Origin: Rhodothermia bacterium
GTDB taxonomy: Bacteria; Bacteroidota; Rhodothermia; Rhodothermales; UBA2364
Direction of reading: 5' to 3'
DNA: 64,000 bases
Assembly: GCA_017303715.1 (NCBI GenBank)
Contig: JAFLBZ010000008.1
Coordinates: 1-64,000, forward strand
Position 1 is the first letter of the stretch; each line of letters begins with the position of its first letter. This document shows, piece after piece, positions 41,867 to 55,313 of this stretch. A model generated the notes under the pieces. It saw nothing but the letters and a program-made list of their open reading frames with translations. It searched no databases and was not told where the DNA came from. A program made the translations under genes and the position numbers.

Positions 41867-42288
41867 GTTTTATGTTTTATTACAGAACAACCAAGATAAG
41901 AATTGTTTGTGTACTTCGCAAAGAATGAAAGGCCAATGAAGGGTGTTATCATTGCTAAATTCAATTTTTCGTCATCATTCCTTCTTGTAAAAGGTATTAT
42001 TTAAGTAAAAAGGGTCGTAACTAAAGAAGAAAAAGAGAATCGTTTAAACCAAGAGTAATGTATAGATTGGATTTTATTTTTTGTCTTTTTGATTAATTAA
42101 ACTTTTTTTTATAAAGAAAAAGTAATCTATCAATTATGAAAAACGAATCTTGACCAAAAACATTCGGTTAATCCGCTGGTTTTTTTTCTGCAATATGCTA
42201 ACTTCTCTTGGCGACTGGTAATCCCTCCTCGTACCAATCGAAATCAAGAAACTGGCCAATCGGCTTTTATCCTTCCTATTATCCGATC
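41867..42288. other. AT-rich divergent region upstream of dnaA
   Basis: About 420 bases between the DUF177 gene and dnaA. Positions ~42040-42150 are strongly AT-rich with long T and A runs. I could not find clear DnaA boxes (ttatccaca-like), so I do not call this an origin. It should contain the promoters of both neighbours. Confidence 0.5.
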
Positions 42289-43824
42289 ATGCTCGACGCT
42301 GTTCATCAGATTTGGCAAGAATGTCTTACCATTATCCGCGATAATGTGGACAAGCGGAGCTATAAAACATGGTTCGAGCCTATAAAGCCATTGCGCTTGG
42401 AGGAAACACCAAATGAGCGCACCCTCACTATTCAGGTTCCAAGCCGCTTTTATTACGAATGGCTGGAAGAACACTATCCCTCGTTGTTGCGTAAAACGGT
42501 TGGCAAAGTAATGGGCGCAAATTCGCGTTTGGTATATGACATCCTCATGGAGCGAGACAGACCAGAGGACAAAAAACCCCATATTCGTATTCCTGCTGCC
42601 CCAGATGCTCGGCGCAGTTCGCCGAGAACCGTAGTACAACGCCCTATACCACACGGCATACAACAACAAACCAATGCCCAAGGCGGAACCAATCCGGCAG
42701 GTACAACAAGCAATCCACCTCATCCGGTAAATCCACCGCCAAACCTTTCCAGCCCATTCGTTATTCCGGGCATCCGTAGTCCTAAAATAGACAGCCAACT
42801 GAATACGAACTACACCTTCGACCGCTTTATTGAGGGGGATTGTAACCGCTTGGCACGGAGCGCCGCATGGGCCATTGCAGAGCGCCCAAGCGAGACAAGT
42901 TTCAATCCATTTTTGGTATATGGTGGCGTTGGATTGGGAAAAACACACCTTATTCAGGCAATTGGGAATTACGCCAAGCAGCATCAAAAGATAGAGTCTA
43001 TTCTCTACATCTCGTCGGAAAGATTTACCAACGAGTTTGTACAGTCCATTCAGTACAACCGAGTTTCGGAGTTTTCACTGTTCTATCGGCAGATAGACCT
43101 TTTGATTGTGGATGACATCCAGTTTTTTGGTAAAAAAGAAAAAACACAAGAAGAATTTTTTCACATCTTTAATGCCCTGCATCAATCCGGAAAACAGATT
43201 ATCTTATCCGCAGACCGTCCACCAAAAGATATCGTAGGTATTGAGGAACGGTTGTTGTCGCGGTTTCAGTGGGGCTTGACGGCGGATGTGCAACCACCGG
43301 ACTTGGAGACCCGCATTGCTATTTTGCAACGCAAGGCCGAAGACGATGGTATCCAGATTTCATACGACATCATTGAGTTTATCGCACACAACATCACCTC
43401 GAATATTCGGGAGTTGGAAGGTGCTTTGATCCGCTTGCTGGCACATTCTACCCTCCGTCGTGAGGAGATTGTACTCTCTTTTGCCAAAGAAGTCCTTAAA
43501 GACCTGATCCGAGAAGTAAAGGTGAACCTGAGTATCGAAGAGATTTTGAACATTGTTTGTCACTATTTCCAGATTCCAGAAGATCAGGTACGAGCCAAGA
43601 CCCGCAAACAAGAAGTTGTTCAAGCGCGACAAGTAGCCATGTATTTTGCAAAGCAGTTTACAAAACATTCATTGAAGACCATTGGCCTGCATTTTGGTGG
43701 GCGGGATCATTCTACGGTGATTCATGGTATTCAGAGTGTGGAGGGCTATATGGAGACCGATACCAAGTTTGCGGATACCATCCGAGAAATCCAGCACAAG
43801 ATTAAGATTCAAAGTCGCTCTTAA
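42289..43824 (+). CDS. dnaA: Chromosomal replication initiator DnaA
   Basis: About 511 residues from M-L-D-A-V-H-Q-I-W, which starts the usual domain I (W-Q-E-C-L-T-I-I); a longer start at 42208 adds 27 residues of no similarity. Domain II (~residues 100-165) is a Pro/Asn/Gln-rich linker. The AAA+ domain has Walker A at 212-220 (G-G-V-G-L-G-K-T-H) and Walker B L-L-I-V-D-D-I-Q-F-F. The C-terminal DNA-binding domain ends with G-G-R-D-H-S-T-V-I-H. It binds origin boxes and opens the duplex. dnaN follows after 43 bases. Confidence 0.97.
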   Translation: MLDAVHQIWQECLTIIRDNVDKRSYKTWFEPIKPLRLEETPNERTLTIQVPSRFYYEWLEEHYPSLLRKTVGKVMGANSRLVYDILMERDRPEDKKPHIRIPAAPDARRSSPRTVVQRPIPHGIQQQTNAQGGTNPAGTTSNPPHPVNPPPNLSSPFVIPGIRSPKIDSQLNTNYTFDRFIEGDCNRLARSAAWAIAERPSETSFNPFLVYGGVGLGKTHLIQAIGNYAKQHQKIESILYISSERFTNEFVQSIQYNRVSEFSLFYRQIDLLIVDDIQFFGKKEKTQEEFFHIFNALHQSGKQIILSADRPPKDIVGIEERLLSRFQWGLTADVQPPDLETRIAILQRKAEDDGIQISYDIIEFIAHNITSNIRELEGALIRLLAHSTLRREEIVLSFAKEVLKDLIREVKVNLSIEEILNIVCHYFQIPEDQVRAKTRKQEVVQARQVAMYFAKQFTKHSLKTIGLHFGGRDHSTVIHGIQSVEGYMETDTKFADTIREIQHKIKIQSRS

Positions 43825-43867
43825 CCGCCCACCACAAGACATTTAACCGAACCCTATACATCCTTCT

Positions 43868-44998
43868 ATGCGTTTTACCCTTTCGAGCAGTGAACTTTTA
43901 CGCGCCCTCAATATGGTAGCTGGCGCCGTTCCCGGAAAAAGCACGATGCCTATTTTGGAGTGCATCCTATTGGAAAAAGACGGAGGCCGATTAATCCTAA
44001 GTGCGACCGACTTGGAGATTTCCATCAGTCAAAACTTGGAAATGCAGTTTGATCCCGAAGCCTCGGCAGCCGTGGAACGCATCGCTGTTCCGGCCAAACG
44101 ATTGATCGAGACTTTACGTGCCCTGCCAGACCTTCCGGTCACCTTCAGCAGTTCCGAAGACTACCATGTGGAACTCAAGACCGACCAAGGGCAGTACAAA
44201 ATGGTAGGATACGACGGGGCAGACTACCCAAGTCAACCGCAACTTGCACAAAGTACGGCCTTGCACACAGAGGGCGCTATCTTGCGGAGGACGTTCCAAA
44301 AAACCAGCTTTGCCGTGAGCAAAGACGCCCTAAGACCAGCAATGATGGGAGTTTTCTTTAATATTGGGGCAGAATTTAGCGAAGCCGTGGCGACCGACGG
44401 CCACCGCTTAGTCCGAACACGGCAGCATGAACTCAAGAATAGTGAAGCCATTTCGTTCATTGTTCCAGAAAAAGCACTCACCTTGGTCGGGAAAATCGCC
44501 ACCGATGCGCCTTGTACGATCTATGTATCGGATGGGTTTATTGCTTTTGACTTCGACGACGTGCGGCTCGTGACACGGGTTATTGAAGAGCGTTACCCCA
44601 ACTATGAAGCCGTTATCCCCAAAGACAATACGAAACAACTTCAGATTAACCGTGCTGCATTGTTGGCGGCGGTTAAGCGTGTAGGGCTATACTCCTCCTC
44701 GCTCACACACCAAATTCGTCTTTCCATTACGCAAGGTGAGGTTATGATTTCTGCAGAAGACATCGAGCGTGCTTCCGAGGCCAAAGAACGCATCTTATGT
44801 GAATATAACGACGAATCTATGGAAATTGGATTTAATTCGGTGTATCTGATAGAGATGTTGAACAACATAGATACGGCAGAGGTTGTCATGAATTTCAGTT
44901 CACCCAACCGTGCCGGAGTTGTTTATCCTTCTGAACAAGTAGAGAACGAAGAGGTTATGATGCTGATCATGCCCGTTATGCTCACCAATTACAACTAA
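43868..44998 (+). CDS. dnaN: DNA polymerase III beta sliding clamp
   Basis: A 376-residue beta clamp, which forms a ring on DNA that tethers the polymerase. Three similar domains can be traced, beginning M-R-F-T-L-S-S-S-E-L-L-R-A-L and ending in the typical V-M-L-T-N-Y-N. The P-G-K-S-T-M-P-I-L-E-C-I-L block near residue 20 and A-T-D-G-H-R-L-V-R near residue 180 are canonical. It is likely transcribed with dnaA. A terminator follows at 45031. Confidence 0.96.
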   Translation: MRFTLSSSELLRALNMVAGAVPGKSTMPILECILLEKDGGRLILSATDLEISISQNLEMQFDPEASAAVERIAVPAKRLIETLRALPDLPVTFSSSEDYHVELKTDQGQYKMVGYDGADYPSQPQLAQSTALHTEGAILRRTFQKTSFAVSKDALRPAMMGVFFNIGAEFSEAVATDGHRLVRTRQHELKNSEAISFIVPEKALTLVGKIATDAPCTIYVSDGFIAFDFDDVRLVTRVIEERYPNYEAVIPKDNTKQLQINRAALLAAVKRVGLYSSSLTHQIRLSITQGEVMISAEDIERASEAKERILCEYNDESMEIGFNSVYLIEMLNNIDTAEVVMNFSSPNRAGVVYPSEQVENEEVMMLIMPVMLTNYN

Positions 44999-45030
44999 GC
45001 TTGTTGGGATTGCTATTTGTATTTTAAAGA

Positions 45031-45070
45031 CGGGATTTTGTCGGGAATGGCAAATCCCGTTTTTGTTTTC
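45031..45070 (+). terminator. Rho-independent terminator after dnaN
   Basis: An 8-bp inverted repeat (cgggattt 45031-45038, aaatcccg 45052-45059) with a 13-base loop is followed by a T-rich tail (tttttgtttt), 33 bases after the dnaN stop. Confidence 0.82.
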
Positions 45071-45170
45071 CGCACATAACCACAATTTCCCCCATGCCCC
45101 TATACTCCGAAGTAGGGTAGTGCATGAAATAATACGTATATTTAACGTGTCTCCTCCTTGATTATATGCC

Positions 45171-48100
45171 ATGGAAATCGTCGAATCCGTAAAAGAAAAT
45201 ACACCTTCCCCAAAAAAACGCACCCGCTGGCTCCGTTGGTTGCTTTGGCGCCCTTTCTTGATTGCACTAATTTTGATCTGGCTGGGTATAAGCACTTGGG
45301 GAACGCTACAAACCAGATGGGGGAGTGATCAGTTTCGGAAATTTGTGGTGGGTCAGCTAAACGAACAACTAAATGGAACCTTGACCATTGGGCGCGTGGA
45401 TGGTTCTTATTGGGATAACATCAGCGCACAGGATATTACGATTTGGCAAAATGGGGAGGCCGTCGTAAAGATAAAAGAAATTCAGGCAGCTTATAAACCA
45501 TTGGATTTATTAGGAGGAACACTACATATCACCAACCTCTACGTCCGGAATCCCGAAATTATTGGTCGCCAAAATCCAGACAGTACATGGAATCTTTTGG
45601 GATTGTTAAAACCACAACCCGAAACGGGTGGCACCTCGCAGCAAACGATCTTAATAGATCGGTTCCGCATTACGGACGGTCAGGGTAAGTTGGTCGTCTT
45701 AGAAAATCCCACCTCTGGGAAACCGCCTTCCGAACAAAAAGAGGCCGATCGAACGGTGCGCTATCAGCAACTGGCGTTTGAGGCGACAGCGTTGCTTTAT
45801 CAAGCTCCGAGGTTTACCGGAAATGTGCAGAAACTTGGCCTTGTTGCCCGTCTGCCAGAGCGAGAAGACGATTTATCCCTCAATTTTTCCGGGAATGTCA
45901 CCGAAAAGTCAGCCCATGTACGCACCTTTTCGCTTGTCTCTGGTTATTCTCAGGTTATGGGAAAAGGGTATGTGGTGTTACCCCAAAAAAATGTCCATAA
46001 TTTCTCCAACTTTCATCTTCAGGTACAACCCTTTTCGTTCCGCGAGATTGCACCTTTTGCGCCTTTCTTAGACCCTCAAGAATCTTTACAAGGGGAATTT
46101 AAGCTCTCTGCCCCAAATGGCGTGTGGCAGGCCCAAACTAGCGGATCGTTTAAAAAAAGTGGTGCTTGGGAGCTGGTGGCAGAGGCGGATCTTCGCGAGC
46201 CGGCCAAAATTTCGCTTATCGGCACGGTAGAAAAACTAAATATGGCCTATCTAACGGCTATGGCGTCGTATTCCTCAGACCTTACAGGCCATATAAATGC
46301 CCAATTCTCCGGACAAAGCCTCCAATCCATAAATGGAGCATATGAGCTTGTATTAGAATCTGGTGGACGTTGGCAAAACTACGTCCTCAAAGAAACCATC
46401 TTAAAAGGTAACGCCCAAGAGGGCAAGCTAACCTTTTTGTTAAATACAGGCTTGGGTACGGGAACACTGAGTGCTACGGGGACAATCCGCCCCTTTGATG
46501 AAGTTCCTACCTATGACCTTACCGGAAATCTCGCACAGTTTGATCCGATCATATTAGATCCAACATTCGATTTCGGACAATTCGGAGGGCAATTTTCGCT
46601 TCGAGGACAAAGCTTCGATCCTGAACTTGCTTCGCTTTCGGGTCAGTTGGACTTCCTACCTGTGGCGGTAAAATACCCCCCTTACCGGATTGAGCTAAAA
46701 CAAACAAAAGCCGCGTTCTCGTACCTTCAAGGAGTCGGGCAGTTTGAGGTTTCCTCCGGCGTTGGTTCTGGCTTTATCACAACAAAAGGCCGTATCAAGA
46801 TGGCAGAAACCCTGCAATATCAGATCGAAAAGGGAAGCCTTCGTCATTTTGATCCAAGAGATGTTTTGGGGAAAGAGGCGCCACCGGGGGATATTAATGC
46901 CCAATTTTCGGTTGATGGCAAAGGGACTTCGCCCAAAAATCTGAACCTGACTTTAAAGGCCGAAATACAGCCGTCACGGTTTGACATCTACAACGTCCGT
47001 CAAGGCAACCTAAGCGCCTCGTTTGCAAATGGTGTTTTGAGATATACAACAAATGCAACCATAGGGGAGAGTCGTTTCTTCCTTACGGGTAGTGGAAAAC
47101 CTTTCGACAAAACTCCCGTTTTTTCTATTTCTGATGGCCAATTCTCGGATTTAAACTTGGATGATTTTGTATTAGACCAAGCGCTGGATACCCGCCTTAA
47201 TGGTCGGTTTACAGCAAGTGTTACGGGTACAGATCCTAAAACAATGACCATTTCTTCCGCATTCGCTTTTGGCCCCTCTCGTTTTAGGACATACCCAATA
47301 GAAGGGTTTAAGGGCAATGTTGCGCTCGTCCAAAACCTTTTGCGGTACAATGTGGAACTTCGTTCGGCGTTTGGCGACGCCGTTTTTAAAGGACAGGCGC
47401 ATCCATTTGATCAACCCCTTTCGGCCAAGATAGAGGACGGGCGTTTTAGTGCCGTGAACCTTGCAGCCCTGACGGCAGAACCCAAGTTGCAATCGCATCT
47501 AAATGGACAAATTGAAGAGGCCTATTTCTCTGGTGCAACCGAAAATGATCTAAGTGGTCGCCTATCGCTTAAGTTAACAGAAAGCCGCTTTAACCGCGAG
47601 ACCATCCAGCGCGGGCACTTGATCGTGGAAGGAAATGCGCAGAAGATGGATTACCAACTACACCTTAATCCAGAAAACGGACTTGTAAAGGTTGTGGGGT
47701 CTGGAGGACTGCAAGCAAGCGAGCCATTTTATAAGGTGCAGGGCGATTTAGAGAACATCTCCTTGGCCAAGTGGCTAAACTTGCCCGACACCGTTAAGAC
47801 CAGACTCAGTTTAAACTTGGCCGCCGAGGGACGAGGCATCTCTTTGGAAACTATGCAACTTACGGGAAAGGTTTCCACAAAAAACAGCTATTGGGATGCC
47901 GTCCGGCTGCAAACAGGAATTGGCGCGTTTAGGTACCAAGAAGGAATGCTTCACTTGGATACATTATCTGTGGAGAGTAATTTAGGAACCATTGCCGGAC
48001 GAGGCCCACTTGCTGTCTATGATAATCTTATAGGGGGAACTTCCGACATGCAGTTCTCTGGCTATATCAAAACACTAACGCCCCTCTCTGGATTGGTTGG

Positions 48101-50300
48101 TGCGAAACTTACCGGAAGAGGGGCTGTGCGCGGTAACGTCCGAGGTGAGGTGAATGCGTGGCGCCTTCGGTTTGATACCGTGGACGAAGGCTTGGGTTTA
48201 TTGGGCTATGACGATATACATATTGGGCACGCACGAGGACGTTTAGCCGTGGAGTTTGAAGCAGGCGTGCCCGTTTTTCAAACACGAACCGAGTTGGAAA
48301 ACCTCTCGGTTCCGGGCTATGTCTTTGAAAGTGCAACAGTCGAAGTTGGCTTAAGGGATAGTGTCGCTTCTTTTGGCGGAAAGTTTACCTTGGATGAACG
48401 GCTCTCTGGGAGTGGTGATGGTATGCTCTACATACGTTCCGATGGGGTGATGGTGGATTTGGCGTCCACACGGTTGGATCTTGGCGGCAAAAGGTGGCAA
48501 ATGGAAAAGCCAACCCAGTTTATTTGGGACAAAGACCAATTGGGACTAAAAGACTTCTTGTTGGTAACGGATGGGCAAAAAGTGGTGATCGAAGGGGGGC
48601 TTTTCAAAAACAATTCTGGAACCTTAAAGGCTACCGTAGAAAAGGTAGATATTGCCGCCATTGCAGATATTCTAAACTTCCCCAGTCTTGGCGGCGTATT
48701 AAGCGGGGATTTGGAAGTCAGTGGTACCATAAATACTCCTCTGATGGATGGAAATCTAATGCTTTCGCAGATTACCTCCGCCGGAAAGCCTGTTGGAGAG
48801 GCCAGTGCCAAACTCAACTATCAAGACAATCGCTTGAATATAGACATGCGTATCCGGCATAATGAGGGACAAGACCTTATGATTACAGGCTTCCTACCTT
48901 TTAATTTAGGTCAATTGGAGAAACCCTTAGCAGGACCAGTAGATCTACGGTTAAATACAGATCGGTTTAACCTCGACTGGTTAAATCCATTTTTAGACGA
49001 TACCTTTATGCGTGACCTAAAAGGCCGCACAACCGGAAACGTAACCATAGGCGGCACTTTTGACGCACCCGATTTCCGTGGAAGCTTGTCCGTCCGGAAT
49101 GCGCAGTTTGGATTGCCCTTTTTGGGCATTCAATATAGCGACGCAGAGGCCGATGTGGTCTTTAACGGCGATGTCGCCCAAGTTCAAAAACTCTACGTCC
49201 GTACTGCCAAGGGAAATCTCAAAGGCAAAGGAACCATCTCGCTTTCACAACTTAATTTGGGCTACTTAGACTTAGCCTTAGAGGCAGATGGTTTCCAAAT
49301 GATTCGGGATAACACCTTCCGCGTAACGGCAACAGGCAAAGCAAACCTCAAGGGCACTACCTCAAGACCAATCTTGGATGGGGATGTTGTGCTGAATGAG
49401 TGCGACGTCCAGCTCAATGCCGAATTGATGCAATCGGCACGCGAAACCATTCAACTTTCCCAAGAAGACCTCCGAGAAGTGGAAGCACGGTTTGGGAAAC
49501 AAGCCAATATTGCGGACACCTCTACCGTCACGTTCTATGATGCAACGGATGTGAAACTACGGGTGCGCTCGAATGGCAATGCTTGGCTGCGAAGCCGCTA
49601 CAACCCACGAATGGATATCGAAATGACAGGCGATCTGGAATTTAGGAAACCATACCGAAGTGCAGAAGTGGTGGTTGGGCGGCTCAAGGCGGTTCCGGGG
49701 AGAAGTCGCGTAGAGTTCGGGAGAAGATTCGATCTAACCACCGGGGATATTCTGTTTAATGGCGATATGTTAAACCCCATCATGAACATCAGCGCCACCT
49801 ATAAAGCGAGTGCGGGCAGTTGGGGAGATGAACAAAGCATCACCATGGAAATTTCAGGCGATGTAAACAATACCAACTTTCGCTTCGCTTCTAATCCACC
49901 AATGGAGGATACCGAAATCTTGAGCTATCTGGCTTTTGGAAAGCCTGCACAATCGGCTTTTGCCTTAGACAATGGGATTGTTGGAGACTTGCTCTCTACT
50001 TATGGCTACAACCTCGTAGAGTCCTTACTATCTCAGCGTGTACAAGAAAGTGGGCTTGCGGATGTCGTGGAGCTAACATCCTCCAACGGGGAACCATCCC
50101 TCAAAATAGGAAAGTATATTTCACGGCGTTTCTTTATTGCATTAGACTCAAAGATTCTCGGTGGAACCGGTGGGTCTGGATTTTTATTAGAATACCAAGC
50201 CCAAAAATGGGCCTTGTTAAGGATACAACAATTTCCCTCAACCAATGACCTACAAGACCGGACACTGGGGTTGTACGTCCTACTTGAGTATGCGTACTGA
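45171..50300 (+). CDS. TamB-like translocation/assembly module protein
   Basis: A 1709-residue protein. A cytoplasmic basic start is followed by one membrane anchor (F-L-I-A-L-I-L-I-W-L-G-I-S), then a very long region of repeating beta strands, and a C-terminal DUF490/TamB domain (block P-V-F-Q-T... to L-S-Y-L-A-F-G-K-P-A-Q and the terminal L-L-E-Y-A-Y). The family forms a periplasm-spanning groove that carries lipids or helps outer membrane proteins reach the outer membrane. It is longer than enteric TamB. No BamA/TamA-like gene is adjacent in this window. Confidence 0.9.
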   Translation: MEIVESVKENTPSPKKRTRWLRWLLWRPFLIALILIWLGISTWGTLQTRWGSDQFRKFVVGQLNEQLNGTLTIGRVDGSYWDNISAQDITIWQNGEAVVKIKEIQAAYKPLDLLGGTLHITNLYVRNPEIIGRQNPDSTWNLLGLLKPQPETGGTSQQTILIDRFRITDGQGKLVVLENPTSGKPPSEQKEADRTVRYQQLAFEATALLYQAPRFTGNVQKLGLVARLPEREDDLSLNFSGNVTEKSAHVRTFSLVSGYSQVMGKGYVVLPQKNVHNFSNFHLQVQPFSFREIAPFAPFLDPQESLQGEFKLSAPNGVWQAQTSGSFKKSGAWELVAEADLREPAKISLIGTVEKLNMAYLTAMASYSSDLTGHINAQFSGQSLQSINGAYELVLESGGRWQNYVLKETILKGNAQEGKLTFLLNTGLGTGTLSATGTIRPFDEVPTYDLTGNLAQFDPIILDPTFDFGQFGGQFSLRGQSFDPELASLSGQLDFLPVAVKYPPYRIELKQTKAAFSYLQGVGQFEVSSGVGSGFITTKGRIKMAETLQYQIEKGSLRHFDPRDVLGKEAPPGDINAQFSVDGKGTSPKNLNLTLKAEIQPSRFDIYNVRQGNLSASFANGVLRYTTNATIGESRFFLTGSGKPFDKTPVFSISDGQFSDLNLDDFVLDQALDTRLNGRFTASVTGTDPKTMTISSAFAFGPSRFRTYPIEGFKGNVALVQNLLRYNVELRSAFGDAVFKGQAHPFDQPLSAKIEDGRFSAVNLAALTAEPKLQSHLNGQIEEAYFSGATENDLSGRLSLKLTESRFNRETIQRGHLIVEGNAQKMDYQLHLNPENGLVKVVGSGGLQASEPFYKVQGDLENISLAKWLNLPDTVKTRLSLNLAAEGRGISLETMQLTGKVSTKNSYWDAVRLQTGIGAFRYQEGMLHLDTLSVESNLGTIAGRGPLAVYDNLIGGTSDMQFSGYIKTLTPLSGLVGAKLTGRGAVRGNVRGEVNAWRLRFDTVDEGLGLLGYDDIHIGHARGRLAVEFEAGVPVFQTRTELENLSVPGYVFESATVEVGLRDSVASFGGKFTLDERLSGSGDGMLYIRSDGVMVDLASTRLDLGGKRWQMEKPTQFIWDKDQLGLKDFLLVTDGQKVVIEGGLFKNNSGTLKATVEKVDIAAIADILNFPSLGGVLSGDLEVSGTINTPLMDGNLMLSQITSAGKPVGEASAKLNYQDNRLNIDMRIRHNEGQDLMITGFLPFNLGQLEKPLAGPVDLRLNTDRFNLDWLNPFLDDTFMRDLKGRTTGNVTIGGTFDAPDFRGSLSVRNAQFGLPFLGIQYSDAEADVVFNGDVAQVQKLYVRTAKGNLKGKGTISLSQLNLGYLDLALEADGFQMIRDNTFRVTATGKANLKGTTSRPILDGDVVLNECDVQLNAELMQSARETIQLSQEDLREVEARFGKQANIADTSTVTFYDATDVKLRVRSNGNAWLRSRYNPRMDIEMTGDLEFRKPYRSAEVVVGRLKAVPGRSRVEFGRRFDLTTGDILFNGDMLNPIMNISATYKASAGSWGDEQSITMEISGDVNNTNFRFASNPPMEDTEILSYLAFGKPAQSAFALDNGIVGDLLSTYGYNLVESLLSQRVQESGLADVVELTSSNGEPSLKIGKYISRRFFIALDSKILGGTGGSGFLLEYQAQKWALLRIQQFPSTNDLQDRTLGLYVLLEYAY

Positions 50301-50842
50301 TCCTCCTACCCTATCCCCTCGATCTCATAGGACAGTATTATTTTTAATATTATTCAAAAGTTCACAATGCGAAAAGCCGCAAAGTTGTCCGCCCATTCTC
50401 TGGCCAAAGCGCAGACAAATCAACCTAAAGACATTCTATTTTCTCATAAGGTGGGTCATTGGATTTTAACCCCATGAAGGGATATTTAGATAGAAAAAAA
50501 ACGTTTGATCAAAAAGTTTTTTTAAATTAAACCTTTATTGTAGATACGTCGTCTGAAAGATACCACACCCACTACCACTTCTTTCTGAGCAATCTCGGAT
50601 GAATTCGTTCAAACGAGTAATTTTTGAGGGCATGTTCTTTTGAACATGGAGCCAAATTGTGATAGGTTTTCGCTTCAGGCTTTGTTTTAACCTGTTGCAG
50701 CCTACCGTTTGGTTTATTACCTTCAAGCCTGTGTGTTCCTCTTAACATTACACACAAGATGCATCCCTTGCCTTAAAACGGGAAGCTGGCCGCATTTTTG
50801 TTGGCCTCACCACCACTGCTCACCCAATGTTAGGCCGAATTT
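50301..50842. other. Long non-coding region before the ECF sigma gene
   Basis: About 542 bases with no supported gene. It includes a perfect 7-bp palindrome with a four-base loop at 50633-50650 (catgttc / gaacatg), and AT-rich stretches around 50480-50530. It is likely to hold the promoter of the sigma gene cluster, and such clusters are often autoregulated, but I cannot point to a promoter motif. Confidence 0.5.
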
Positions 50843-51433
50843 ATGCTCGACAACATTAAACAACTGCCTTCACGACAAGGACTCAGCGATTTGGAACTGG
50901 TTCGCCGATTTAAACAAGGGGATCGGGACTTGGCGTTCGACCAATTGGTTCGTCGTTATCAAGAGCGTATCTACTGGACGGTTCGCCGTATTGTAGGCTC
51001 GCACGAAGATGCCGATGACGTTGCCCAAGAAACCTTTGTGACCATGTGGCAAAAGTTAGACAGCTTCCGCGAAGACGCCAATTTCTTTACTTGGCTCTAC
51101 CGTGTAAGCGTCAATGCAGCCTTAGGACACCTCCGGCGGAGCAAGATGAAACGGTTTGTTAGCCTAGAGACATTGGTACAACCGTTTGAAGACCCAGATA
51201 TGCAGTCTGACCGGAATATGTTGAACGATGAGCGGATCTCCGCAGTCGAGCAAGCGATTCAGGCACTTCCTCCACAGCAACGGGTTGTGTTTTGCATGAG
51301 ATACTATGATGGTCTCAAATACGAAGAGATCAGTGTAATGCTTGGGAAGAGTACCGGGACCTTGAAGGCGAATTATCATCACGCCATCAAGAAACTAGAG
51401 CAGGCACTCAAAGATGAGTTTGCACAAACCTAA
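50843..51433 (+). CDS. ECF-type RNA polymerase sigma factor
   Basis: A 196-residue sigma-70 family factor of the extracytoplasmic-function class. Region 2 is seen as F-D-Q-L-V-R-R-Y-Q-E-R-I-Y and D-A-D-D-V-A-Q-E-T-F-V-T-M-W-Q near residues 55-70. Region 4 is seen as L-P-P-Q-Q-R-V-V-F-C-M-R-Y-Y-D-G-L-K-Y-E-E-I near 145-166, split here only by description. It directs RNA polymerase to stress-type promoters. The next gene, a membrane protein with anti-sigma-like repeats, overlaps its end by 20 bases, which fits a sigma/anti-sigma pair. Confidence 0.93.
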   Translation: MLDNIKQLPSRQGLSDLELVRRFKQGDRDLAFDQLVRRYQERIYWTVRRIVGSHEDADDVAQETFVTMWQKLDSFREDANFFTWLYRVSVNAALGHLRRSKMKRFVSLETLVQPFEDPDMQSDRNMLNDERISAVEQAIQALPPQQRVVFCMRYYDGLKYEEISVMLGKSTGTLKANYHHAIKKLEQALKDEFAQT

Positions 51434-52766
51434 CGTTCCGGAAGCAGGCCGGGCCAGTCGGCTCGTCCGCGCGCACAGCCGCCAAAACCTCCCTAAATGG
51501 CTAACAGCCTCCTTAGATAACTACCAAGGTGCCCTCGAAGTAACCGAGGTAGGGGTTCCGGCTGATTATTTTCAAAATTTTTCGGACTCGGTACACGATC
51601 GTGTACGGAGGCGAGAAGCCGAGTTTACCCATCGGCAATTGCCCCGTGCATTGGCCATGCGCCTATCCATGCCACTTCCCGCGGAAATCCCAAGCGGAGC
51701 AACTGCTTATTTTCGTACCCTCCTTGAGAAGGTCAAAAACCAAGTAGAAACGATCGAAGCCTCTGGCGTTCCGGCTTGGGTGCATGATGCCTTAGCATTG
51801 ATGGAGCGTGAGGTCTCACCTGTCCAGCAAGCATCCTATATGCAGGAATTGGTGGATACCTTGGGTCGGGCAATCAGCGAGTTCGAAACGATCCCAGAGT
51901 GGCTACAAGAGGCACTGGCCTTCCGTAGCGATGCCATGCCCATTGACAAACAGGTTTATTTTACCTCCTTTGCAGATCGGGTTCGGGTACGCCTTGCAGC
52001 AGTCGAATTAGACGAGCCGGTTTCGGGCTGGATGCACGAAGCACTAAACGCTACACCGGACACAAGCGAAGCAACACCCACTTATTTTACGCGCTTTAGC
52101 GAGCGGCTACGTCAGCACATCGAGGACGATGCAGCAACAGGTGTTCCTGTATGGTTAGACCAAGCCTTGATGACCGCAGCACATCCACGTATTCCCGGTG
52201 GCTCCGAAACGTATTTTAAGTCCTTTTCCTCACAAGTCTTGCAGACCGTATCGGAAGTTTCCCACCTCGAAACCGAAGAATTGGTAGATCCAACCACTGT
52301 TGAACGTTTAGTGGATGCACCGGATCGTTTTCAGGAGCTTTTGGCTTCTTACAACGATATATCCTTACCTGTTGGGCAAGAGTTGTACTTTGAGGATTTT
52401 GCAGATCGGGTGAAAGCCCGCATCCATGCCCGAAAATTAGACCATTTACCCCAAAGCCCCATCGTTCGTCTGATGAGCCGCCAACCGGTGCAATGGGCGA
52501 CGGCGGCATGTTTCGGGTTGTTGTTGGGGTTTGTGTGGTTTTGGAAACCAGATGCTACGCCTGCTGTTGTACCTCCTACAAAAGCACCTATACATGCGCC
52601 AATACCATCTACACTTGGTGTTCCCAAGGAGACTTCTTCCGGGCCTGTAAAACAAAGCAATACAGCTGAAAAACCTACAAATACTCCTCTTAAAATCGAA
52701 CCAGTGATGGGTAAACAGCCAGATGCTCCAAAACCAGACGTACCGGTTCCGAACTCAAATCAGTAA
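51414..52766 (+). CDS. Repeat-containing membrane protein, candidate anti-sigma factor
   Basis: A 450-residue protein in three parts. Residues ~27-345 consist of seven imperfect copies of a ~40-residue unit whose pattern is 'h-P-x-W-L-x-x-A-L ... P ... Y-F-x-x-F-x-x-R-V'. The Y-F/Y-M pairs fall at residues 52, 99, 142, 182, 224, 267 and 325. One membrane helix follows at ~361-378 (A-A-C-F-G-L-L-L-G-F-V-W-F-W), then a ~70-residue Pro/Thr/Lys-rich tail that should be periplasmic. The Y-F..F..R-V piece resembles the short N-terminal segment of Bacteroidota anti-sigma proteins. The start overlaps the sigma gene by 20 bases. Function is inferred from gene order and motif. Confidence 0.7.
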   Translation: MSLHKPNVPEAGRASRLVRAHSRQNLPKWLTASLDNYQGALEVTEVGVPADYFQNFSDSVHDRVRRREAEFTHRQLPRALAMRLSMPLPAEIPSGATAYFRTLLEKVKNQVETIEASGVPAWVHDALALMEREVSPVQQASYMQELVDTLGRAISEFETIPEWLQEALAFRSDAMPIDKQVYFTSFADRVRVRLAAVELDEPVSGWMHEALNATPDTSEATPTYFTRFSERLRQHIEDDAATGVPVWLDQALMTAAHPRIPGGSETYFKSFSSQVLQTVSEVSHLETEELVDPTTVERLVDAPDRFQELLASYNDISLPVGQELYFEDFADRVKARIHARKLDHLPQSPIVRLMSRQPVQWATAACFGLLLGFVWFWKPDATPAVVPPTKAPIHAPIPSTLGVPKETSSGPVKQSNTAEKPTNTPLKIEPVMGKQPDAPKPDVPVPNSNQ

Positions 52767-52779
52767 TTACAAATCTATT

Positions 52780-53292
52780 ATGCAATGCACTTCTTGCTCA
52801 AATTTAGGGCGTTGGGTGCGTGTGCTTGCGGGGCTTTGCATCTTCCTCTTGCTCCCCAAAGCAACCATGTCCCAAACGCCTGCAGCAACGTTTGCGAAAC
52901 AAGTCGCAGAACGTCAGATCGCCTATTTCAAAGAGAAAATGGGCTTGGATGAACGTGAGTTATCACAGTTCTTAGACTTTTATGAGTCGTATCAAATCGG
53001 GATTATCCGCCTCGACCGCCTTAAAAAACAGCAATACGAAATGCTTTCGACTGCACTTAAAGAACAACATGACCCAAAGCAGGTCGAGAAAATGGCTGTA
53101 GAGTTAGGTCGTTTTGAGGAAAGACTCGAATTGGTTCGCCAAATCTTTCATGGGGATATCATTCGAGCGTTTGGGGCCAAGCGGTTTGCGCAATATCTTT
53201 TGGCACAATGGGAATTTGTTCGGATTGTTGAACAAATGCGGAACGAGTTTATCCAGCGGCAACAACGCGAGAGTGAAAAAAATAAATCTTAA
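52780..53292 (+). CDS. Small secreted helical protein (Spy/CpxP-like)
   Basis: About 170 residues from M-Q-C-T-S-C-S, with a signal peptide (L-A-G-L-C-I-F-L-L-L-P-K-A ... S-Q-T). The mature part is almost all helical and rich in Gln, Glu, Arg and Lys, with L-D-E-R-E-L-S-Q-F-L-D-F-Y-E-S-Y and repeated R-Q-I/F-H-G heptad-like pattern. This resembles periplasmic Spy/CpxP or heavy-metal-sensor helical proteins, but no L-T-x-x-Q motif is seen. It follows the candidate anti-sigma gene by 13 bases and may be its periplasmic partner or an envelope chaperone (inference). Confidence 0.65.
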   Translation: MQCTSCSNLGRWVRVLAGLCIFLLLPKATMSQTPAATFAKQVAERQIAYFKEKMGLDERELSQFLDFYESYQIGIIRLDRLKKQQYEMLSTALKEQHDPKQVEKMAVELGRFEERLELVRQIFHGDIIRAFGAKRFAQYLLAQWEFVRIVEQMRNEFIQRQQRESEKNKS

Positions 53293-53510: not shown

Positions 53511-55313
53511 TCACTTTACGGAGATCACAACACTACGGTTGGCTTGGTCGACATCTTGACCGGGATAAAACGGTTTTACTGGACGCGAGGAGCCATATCC
53601 GACGATCGCAAGGTATGCAGCAGGGATATGATAATCCTCTACAAATACCTTTTTTACAGATTCCGCACGTTGGATGCTAAGGGTTTGATTGGCAGGGGTT
53701 TGGGGACCATCTGTTCGGCCTTCAAGCACGATGGTTGGGTACGGTAGTTGGTTCTGGGCCGCAACATCAAATATTTCCTTAATCTTGGCCGCCATTACGC
53801 CGATCATATAGGGATTTAAGAAGGATTTCCCTCGGTCAAAAAAAACGCGCCCTTGTGTTAATTCTGGAATGAGGTTCTTGTTCAAATAATCTTCGGGCGA
53901 TAAGATAAACTGTGTATCTATACCATTGACCCCATCAAAAGCTGGGATAATGGTTTTAGCTTTTTCGATCCATTCATTATTGGCAACCCCCACAGGCTGC
54001 AACACCAAGTCGTGTGTCAGACGAAGTTCAAGACGTTTTGGGGGGATTAATCTTTTTTCCAATCTCCGGATGAGAATGGGCTTCTCCAGCGAGGTAAAGG
54101 GCGTCCAGTCAACATCTATTCGATTTGAATTTAAGCCAATACCATTCATATTTTGATGTACAACATCCTCGGCGAGTGGGTCTTTAATGCCTCTTAGCCA
54201 GTAACGTCCGAAGCCGGAGGCTGTGAACCAGTCTTTTTCAGCTTCCGTAATCATGTATCCCGGTGTTTCGCGCATGGTTTGCACAAAACGGTTCCAGCGG
54301 ATTGTATCGCGGGCAACAACGTACAAGAGTGTGCCTATCACCAAAAGTACGCCGCCCCACTTCAAGACCAGTACCATTTTGGCAGGGCTGACGGTTTGCC
54401 GAGAAGGGACATAGGAGGCATCCAAACAGTTTTCTAAATAGGGTTTGGATGGTTCAAAAATATCGGTATCACCACTGAAGGCTCGAAAGGCCAACTGTTG
54501 TTCAAAATGGATATTTTCGAGGGCTTCAAGCAAGAGTGTGCTAAGGCTTTCTGGCGGGTTTCCTCTAACAACTGCTGCGATATATGCTTGAGGCCCTTCT
54601 GCTGTCACAATTGAAAATCCTTCATATTTTAAGACATCCAGCGCCTCTTTCCGACCAAGAGAGTCTTTAGCAAAATCACGCAGGGCGGTAAGCATTGAGG
54701 AAAAAAGATCTGCCTCAAAATTCGGCACATTGGGAGCATGTAGTTCCTGTAATAAAAGACCGCTTTCTTTGTGAATTAAAACAATGTGTTCTACACGATA
54801 CAGCAGGGTGTGCGCCAGAAGAACATCGTCAAAATTACGACCCGTGCGGATAGCCTCCCATCGCCACTTAAGCCCTTTAAGCGAAAACAAACTACGGTAT
54901 TGTTCGTGTTCTGGTTGGTTGGTTTCGCCAAAGGCACGCAAAGCTTGAGCGATAGACTTCCGTATGGCTGGCCCCATAGAAGGGAACAAGATGTCCGCTA
55001 TCCGAAATCGGTTTTGGGTGATGGATTCTCGGATGGCGTCTTCGACAACAGGGGTTAGGCTTCTAACCAATTTATCGTCTGCCTGAGACCGTTTAACAAT
55101 ACTATCAGGCAGGAGATCCCCCACTTGGTCGGACGTAATGCCTCGGTGTTCAAACTCCGTGACCCGCTCCTCTAATTTTCGGATGTCAGCCCGTTCTTTG
55201 CCCATTAATAGCCACCGCAAAGACTCCAACTCACCTTTTTCAGTTGTGGTTTGTTGCGTTGTCCGGTTTTTAGTGGATTCTGGGGGTGCTTTTTTCTGGA
55301 AAAAGAAGGCCAT
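53511..55313 (-). CDS. OmpA-family protein with large cytosolic N-terminal domain
   Basis: A 600-residue protein. Residues 28-51 carry the motif E-L-x-x-L-R-x-L-L-x-G ... K-L-E-E-R. Then follows a ~250-residue soluble region (P-V-V-E-D-A-I-R-E-S, F-P-S-M-G-P-A-I-R-K-S-I, L-L-Y-R-V-E-H-I-V-L-I-H). One membrane helix lies near residues 315-335, then a periplasmic region and a C-terminal OmpA/MotB peptidoglycan-binding domain (V-L-E-G-R-T-D ... L-S-I-Q-R-A-E-S-V-K). Proteins of this plan occur, as far as I recall, in cyanobacteria and some Proteobacteria, without known role. It follows a coiled-coil gene by 11 bases and ends at 53511. Confidence 0.75.
   Translation of the reverse strand: MAFFFQKKAPPESTKNRTTQQTTTEKGELESLRWLLMGKERADIRKLEERVTEFEHRGITSDQVGDLLPDSIVKRSQADDKLVRSLTPVVEDAIRESITQNRFRIADILFPSMGPAIRKSIAQALRAFGETNQPEHEQYRSLFSLKGLKWRWEAIRTGRNFDDVLLAHTLLYRVEHIVLIHKESGLLLQELHAPNVPNFEADLFSSMLTALRDFAKDSLGRKEALDVLKYEGFSIVTAEGPQAYIAAVVRGNPPESLSTLLLEALENIHFEQQLAFRAFSGDTDIFEPSKPYLENCLDASYVPSRQTVSPAKMVLVLKWGGVLLVIGTLLYVVARDTIRWNRFVQTMRETPGYMITEAEKDWFTASGFGRYWLRGIKDPLAEDVVHQNMNGIGLNSNRIDVDWTPFTSLEKPILIRRLEKRLIPPKRLELRLTHDLVLQPVGVANNEWIEKAKTIIPAFDGVNGIDTQFILSPEDYLNKNLIPELTQGRVFFDRGKSFLNPYMIGVMAAKIKEIFDVAAQNQLPYPTIVLEGRTDGPQTPANQTLSIQRAESVKKVFVEDYHIPAAYLAIVGYGSSRPVKPFYPGQDVDQANRSVVISVK

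Follow-up and report, generated by a model that had tools for sequence, protein, structure and literature searches.

A predicted seven-unit anti-sigma factor in a Rhodothermia sigma factor operon, and its variable-copy relatives in the Bacteroidota

The sigma factor operon

We have studied an open reading frame that occupies the anti-sigma position of an ECF sigma factor operon in a Rhodothermia bacterium, the placement proposed in the original prediction. The window, i.e., the whole stretch of DNA analyzed, comprises 64,000 nucleotides of contig JAFLBZ010000008.1, and coordinates are given on this scale. The sigma factor gene (50843..51433, + strand) encodes a protein of 196 amino acids that matches Sigma70_r2 (1.8e-18) and r4_2 (1.4e-16), and is considered cognate by virtue of its operon position. 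It is followed by a gene (51414..52766, + strand) for a predicted single-pass anti-sigma factor of 450 amino acids containing seven units. The first 20 nt of this second reading frame lie within the sigma gene (51414 to 51433), so that the predicted overlap of 20 bases is borne out by the coordinates. The third gene (52780..53292, + strand) encodes an exported helical protein. The first ATG of its reading frame is at 52723, and 52780 is judged from congeners to be the likelier start. The three genes, encoding sigma factor, putative anti-sigma factor and exported helical protein, are a conserved set.

The window was compared with two congeners, one of which is the metagenome-assembled genome UBA2364. 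The sigma protein is 100% and 99% identical to those of the congeners despite a dS of about 0.84. Such constraint is unusually strong for an ECF sigma factor. Against one congener the sigma gene (50843-51433) has dN = 0 and dS = 0.84, while its anti-sigma partner is 71% identical.

The third protein is predicted by AlphaFold2 to be entirely helical (pLDDT 89.2). Homologues of its gene are present at 118 of 124 loci that pair the sigma factor with a YF protein (see below), and a profile of these homologues scores the window protein at 32.6 bits, compared with 7.3 for the best of 500 shuffles. Weak Pfam matches to LTXXQ (11/61) and Metal_resist (9/61) were found among the homologues; the window protein matches neither of these in Pfam. 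A fold search with the third protein gave nothing significant, CnrX included, and we therefore make no claim of a CnrX or Spy relationship. Its operon position makes the third protein a candidate sensor or chaperone partner.

The genes dnaA, dnaN and tamB lie just 5′ of the operon (42208-50300), which may place the sigma operon close to the replication origin. On its other side, an OmpA-family C-terminal protein of 600 amino acids is encoded on the opposite strand (53511-55313), convergent with the operon. An OmpA-family protein also lies beside the operon in the congeners L002 and L003.

Seven units before a single membrane helix

Neither Pfam nor NCBIfam gave a family match above cut-off for the second protein. 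Pfam matches to Peptidase_MA_2 and DUF3337 fell far under the cut-off and were dismissed.

Seven Y-F or Y-M pairs had been predicted at residues 52, 99, 142, 182, 224, 267 and 325, and all are present. An unsupervised segment search lands on the same seven places. The best seven segments of 22 residues have a mean pairwise BLOSUM62 score of 23.6, compared with −1.5 ± 1.3 (maximum 1.4) for 60 shuffles. HMMs were built leaving out each unit in turn, and every held-out unit was detected, with scores of 9.4-28.1 bits. Unit 1 was the narrowest case (9.7 bits versus 9.2 for its best shuffle), and the other six were well above shuffles. Alignment and profile of the seven units are thus significant, far beyond shuffled sequences. 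The description of the unit as YF..F..RV was correct in part; this motif lies inside the repeat, but the true unit is longer, about 43 amino acids. Its consensus is [VIL]Pxx(W)LxxAL ... P....YFxxFxxxVxxxI, also written VPxWLxxAL...P....YFxxFxDxVxxxI, and the period in the window protein is 40-47 amino acids. The units are diverged, with a mean identity of 24% over a core of 24 amino acids.

An HMM constructed without the window detected six of the seven units above all of 300 shuffles each. Units 1 (residues 26-75, 51489..51638, YF at 52) and 7 (residues 306-344, 52329..52445, YF at 325) gave the highest scores, of 22.2 and 18.0 bits respectively. The others scored 7-14 bits, namely units 2 (residues 76-118, 51639..51767, YF at 99), 4 (residues 160-201, 51891..52016, YF at 182), 5 (residues 202-243, 52017..52142, YF at 224) and 6 (residues 244-287, 52143..52274, YF at 267), each of which is also recognized by its leave-one-out HMM. 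Unit 3 (residues 119-159, 51768..51890, YM at 142) was found by the leave-one-out HMM and missed by the outside HMM, and its core, YMQEL, is therefore considered the degenerate one. All of these features lie on the + strand. Throughout 21 unit instances the core positions 0, 1, 4, 8 and 12 counted from the tyrosine are hydrophobic, in 105/105 cells. These positions changed less often between species than the others (6/35 compared with 45/133), but the difference reaches only p = 0.06. Elsewhere in this genome the unit was not found in any protein at E ≤ 0.01.

Units 6 and 7 are separated by a conserved insert (residues ~288-305, EELVDPTTVERLVDAPDR, 52275..52328, + strand). Beyond unit 7, nearest to the membrane, hydropathy reveals one hydrophobic segment (residues ~361-377, 52494..52544, + strand), followed by a variable, presumably periplasmic Pro-rich tail (52545..52763, + strand); the single membrane helix and tail of the original prediction are thus both found.

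Both congeners retain all seven units, and the anti-sigma proteins are 71% identical overall. Over the first 190 codons dN = 0.12 and dS is about 1.5, giving dN/dS of about 0.08. Between species, conservation is greatest in units 1-3 and 7 and smallest in unit 5; it is highest of all in unit 7, the YF helix of which has 90-95% identity. The same identity is found over residues 284-303 at the insert. The membrane helix is without differences in all three species, and the tail has an identity of 36-67%.

AlphaFold2 modeling of the full anti-sigma protein from three sequences gave a series of helices at low confidence (pLDDT 36), and the model was set aside. In this model each unit consists of a short helix and a long one. 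A single continuous globular domain would have spoken against a repeat protein; helices alone were predicted, with no globular fold.

Partners of orthologous sigma factors

Full-length and unit searches of the window's order gave matches restricted to the genus, and a search of IMG/VR gave no match. A unit profile searched against 394 Bacteroidota genomes produced weak matches beyond the genus (best E = 5e-4), and in 17 of the 27 loci inspected the gene with the match came immediately after an ECF sigma gene, on its 3′ side. In a second approach, loci were selected in the 394 sampled genomes by sigma orthology alone, at E ≤ 1e-38. At this threshold 122 of the genomes have an orthologue, with none in the window's own order beyond its genus. 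We gathered 107 neighborhoods and removed two (L089 and L093) in which the wrong ORF had been picked, leaving 105 partner ORFs.

The profile made from window units only matched 37 of the 105 partners at E ≤ 0.01, and none of 525 shuffles. A general unit profile matched 111/123 partner ORFs (some duplicate loci included) and 0/123 shuffles, although having been trained on the partner set itself it is the less independent of the two. In the matches to this general profile, the median distance from the start of the last unit to the membrane helix is 35 residues. These matches in the partners of orthologous sigma factors support the proposal that the unit is the juxtamembrane anti-sigma segment of Bacteroidota.

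The P..YF..F...V..RI unit was found shortly before the membrane helix in 93 of the 105 partners, as one copy in 70 and as two to seven in 23. Twelve partners had no detected copy; multiple copies comprised two (7 partners), three (8), four (2), five (4), six (1) and seven (1). The profile used for this purpose undercounts, giving four for the window protein, and counting motifs raises L122 to five and L152 to three. Thus a profile search, suggested at the outset as a means of finding expanded copies elsewhere, has found them in other Bacteroidota families. The layout had been implied to be unique, and this does not stand; two- to seven-copy versions exist in other sampled families, and in two of these there are three or more copies.

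The larger multi-copy relatives include L113 (7 copies), L124 (6), L119, L122, L131, L132 and L137 (5 each), and L103 and L152 (3 each). They resemble the window protein in their tandem YF units, single membrane helix, operon and want of a zinc motif, and differ from it in having the canonical VPEGYF core. In family f22 all ten members have three to seven copies, with a period of 31 amino acids and no leading segment. Copy number in family f25 is one to five by two counts, and its multi-copy proteins often have periods of ~44 amino acids with a leading LSPLL segment. L113, from a different family to the window, has seven copies at a period of 31 amino acids. Its units share a mean identity of 58%, which makes the expansion look recent, whereas the diverged units of the window protein make its expansion look older. 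The repeat number is fast-changing in the family of L113. Downstream of its sigma orthologue L113 has seven nearly identical VPEGYFDELSSNIQSRI units, and relatives have 3, 5 and 6.

In a tree of the sigma factors all the other multi-copy systems fall in one clade of 41 rows (support 100/99). The window sigma attaches beside this clade on a long branch with weak support (52/47), and thus an independent expansion of the window system is plausible.

We then related the single-copy partners to anti-sigma factors of known structure. An alignment of 20 of them was used to search the PDB, giving RsiW (3.9e-5) and 3hug (5.1e-5), a Mycobacterium tuberculosis anti-sigma factor, followed by DdvA, RsrA, ChrR and RskA. 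The single-copy partners are thus homologous to class I domains; 14 of the 20 contain zf-HC2. Their YF site aligns with EAPADFTANVM of RsiW, at the start of helix 4 in the RsiW structure. The match to RsiW (Bacillus subtilis, PDB 5wuq) covers the Hx3Cx2C bundle and, of helix 4, only the start, which is the site of the YF unit. Most of the match is due to the bundle, a part missing from the window protein. In all solved class I complexes helix 4 contacts sigma-2, and helix 1 contacts sigma-4 (PMC7406223).

The window unit is homologous to that of the single-copy partners. RsiW and RskA are membrane-anchored ECF anti-sigma factors, as predicted for the window protein. However, in contrast to class I proteins (RsiW, RskA, ChrR, RsrA and 3hug), the predicted window protein has neither three-helix bundle nor zinc motif, and instead has seven helix-4-type units. 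It matches neither zf-HC2 nor RskA_N in Pfam, and only 25 residues precede unit 1. The zinc motif is absent from all 23 multi-copy relatives. Nor did searches of Pfam and NCBIfam, taken to E = 1, give any match to a FecR domain.

A second comparison is with the class II protein CnrY of Cupriavidus metallidurans, which has a minimal two-helix sigma-binding region ahead of one membrane helix. CnrY, CnrH and CnrX, the periplasmic sensor, also form a three-gene set of sigma factor, anti-sigma factor and sensor. CnrY has one unit, however, and no sequence match of the window unit to it was found; a PDB search with the unit profile returned neither CnrY nor another anti-sigma factor, giving chance matches only, such as ENLYFQ purification tags.

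The predicted protein does belong with what we define in this analysis as the Bacteroidota YF anti-sigma group, having P..YF..F...V..RI segments shortly before a single membrane helix. Its gene likewise lies 3′ of an orthologous ECF sigma gene and 5′ of that for a small exported helical protein. The single-copy members (of the L031, L036 and L042 types) share the segment before the membrane helix, the position after the ECF sigma gene and the third gene. They differ in having a single unit, which either makes up the cytosolic part by itself (~45-60 residues) or stands behind a class I bundle.

Proposed function of the repeated units

On the basis of homology and operon structure the window protein very probably inhibits the co-encoded stress-response sigma factor. 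The explanation that we favor overall, and consider probable, is that it is a membrane-anchored inhibitor of the upstream ECF sigma factor acting through seven repeated YF segments. In its cytosolic part the juxtamembrane YF segment used by Bacteroidota anti-sigma factors would be present seven times over. In the single-copy relatives this segment lies where class I domains have helix 4, which docks on sigma region 2 and blocks core RNA polymerase. Since those relatives combine a class I bundle with a YF unit at helix 4, the window protein looks like an anti-sigma factor that lacks the bundle, and in which the helix-4-type segment has been repeated together with a short leading helix. Most probably it acts through a helix 4 of the class I type, present here in repeated copies.

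We suggest that the YF helices hold the sigma factor at the membrane through sigma-2. The main binding site is most probably unit 7, which adjoins the membrane, and the remaining units are most probably extra sites for the co-encoded sigma factor, allowing either more sigma factors per anti-sigma factor or greater avidity; the number held by each molecule is a matter of inference. Release would probably follow an envelope signal sensed with the exported product of the third gene, and probably proceeds by cleavage of the single-pass protein. The genome encodes two M50-type proteases that score above cut-off.

How many of the units bind, and what they bind, can be read differently. Unit 7 might be the only one to bind sigma, with or without unit 1, the remainder forming a cytosolic arm that serves as a spacer, an oligomerization segment or a protease-recognition region. 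In keeping with this, unit 7 lies closest to the membrane, where the relatives have their single unit, and is the most conserved between species, and units 1 and 7 have the top outside-profile scores. We nevertheless consider it rather unlikely, given that the five core positions are hydrophobic in every unit instance, that units 2, 4, 5 and 6 are each still recognized by the outside profile, and that the segment is expanded in other families too. A similarly doubtful proposal makes each ~43-amino-acid unit a complete CnrY-like domain, with the leading helix on sigma-4 and the YF helix on sigma-2, so that one molecule could hold up to seven sigma factors. CnrY does bind sigma-4 and sigma-2, for which its two helices alone suffice (PMC7406223). 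The period of 40-47 amino acids is about the size needed, a short and a long helix are predicted for each unit, albeit at low confidence, and the f25 proteins often have a leading segment at a similar spacing. Yet the unit profile matches no anti-sigma structure in the PDB, and the shorter repeat of family f22 has no such leading segment.

Divergence of the units means that they need not share a target. Each might have come to bind a different ECF sigma factor, in which case the protein would serve as a hub for cross-regulation. Despite the low identity between units, every one of them is retained in the congeners, and a first look at the genome gives 23 candidates for other ECF sigma genes. 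We think this improbable. The co-encoded sigma factor is almost invariant, no other protein of the genome matches the unit at E ≤ 0.01, and the likeness of the seven L113 units favors one target. Least probable is that the gene encodes some other membrane protein with a helical cytosolic part, lying in the operon by chance. The protein has no family assignment and no direct experimental homologue, but its unit recurs 3′ of orthologous sigma genes across the phylum, and does so in class I zinc anti-sigma proteins among others.

Returning to inhibition through repeated YF segments, we would extend it tentatively, at somewhat less than even likelihood, to a class of multivalent membrane anti-sigma factors in the Bacteroidota. 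In these a sigma-2-binding helix would be repeated up to seven times, one molecule would hold several sigma factors, and the threshold or grading of the stress response would be set by a copy number that changes within families. A repeat number that varies from one to seven in a single orthologous operon would be unusual as a means of tuning sigma sequestration.

In a published survey class I anti-sigma domains adjoined only 6% of Bacteroidetes ECF sigma factors, compared with 32% overall, and the survey left open how the remaining Bacteroidetes sigma factors are controlled (PMC7406223). The YF segment is covered by no Pfam model tested here, and is a marker of the partner protein for most of the orthologues in this sigma group, providing a concrete test for the Bacteroidetes anti-sigma gap. 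Proteins with one to seven YF copies are widespread in the Bacteroidota, where sigma factor inhibitors have so far gone largely unrecognized. What the comparison exposes appears to be a phylum-wide anti-sigma architecture of variable copy number, for which we found no earlier description in the open-access literature. The same literature yielded no paper on tandem anti-sigma units, no experiment on the window protein or its relatives, and no printed occurrence of VPEGYF, VPENYF or VPAGYF.

The operon is preceded by an intergenic region (50301..50842, + strand), the 3′ half of which contains a conserved element that can fold. Over the 300 bp directly upstream of the sigma gene (50543-50842) the mean column identity in the three species is 93%, compared with 71% at third positions of the sigma gene. 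The element matches no Rfam family. Its folding z score is −3.2, and a hairpin CATGTTC-TTTT-GAACATG lies within a longer stem; there are also two compensated pairs. It is possibly a leader or small RNA, and may control the operon.
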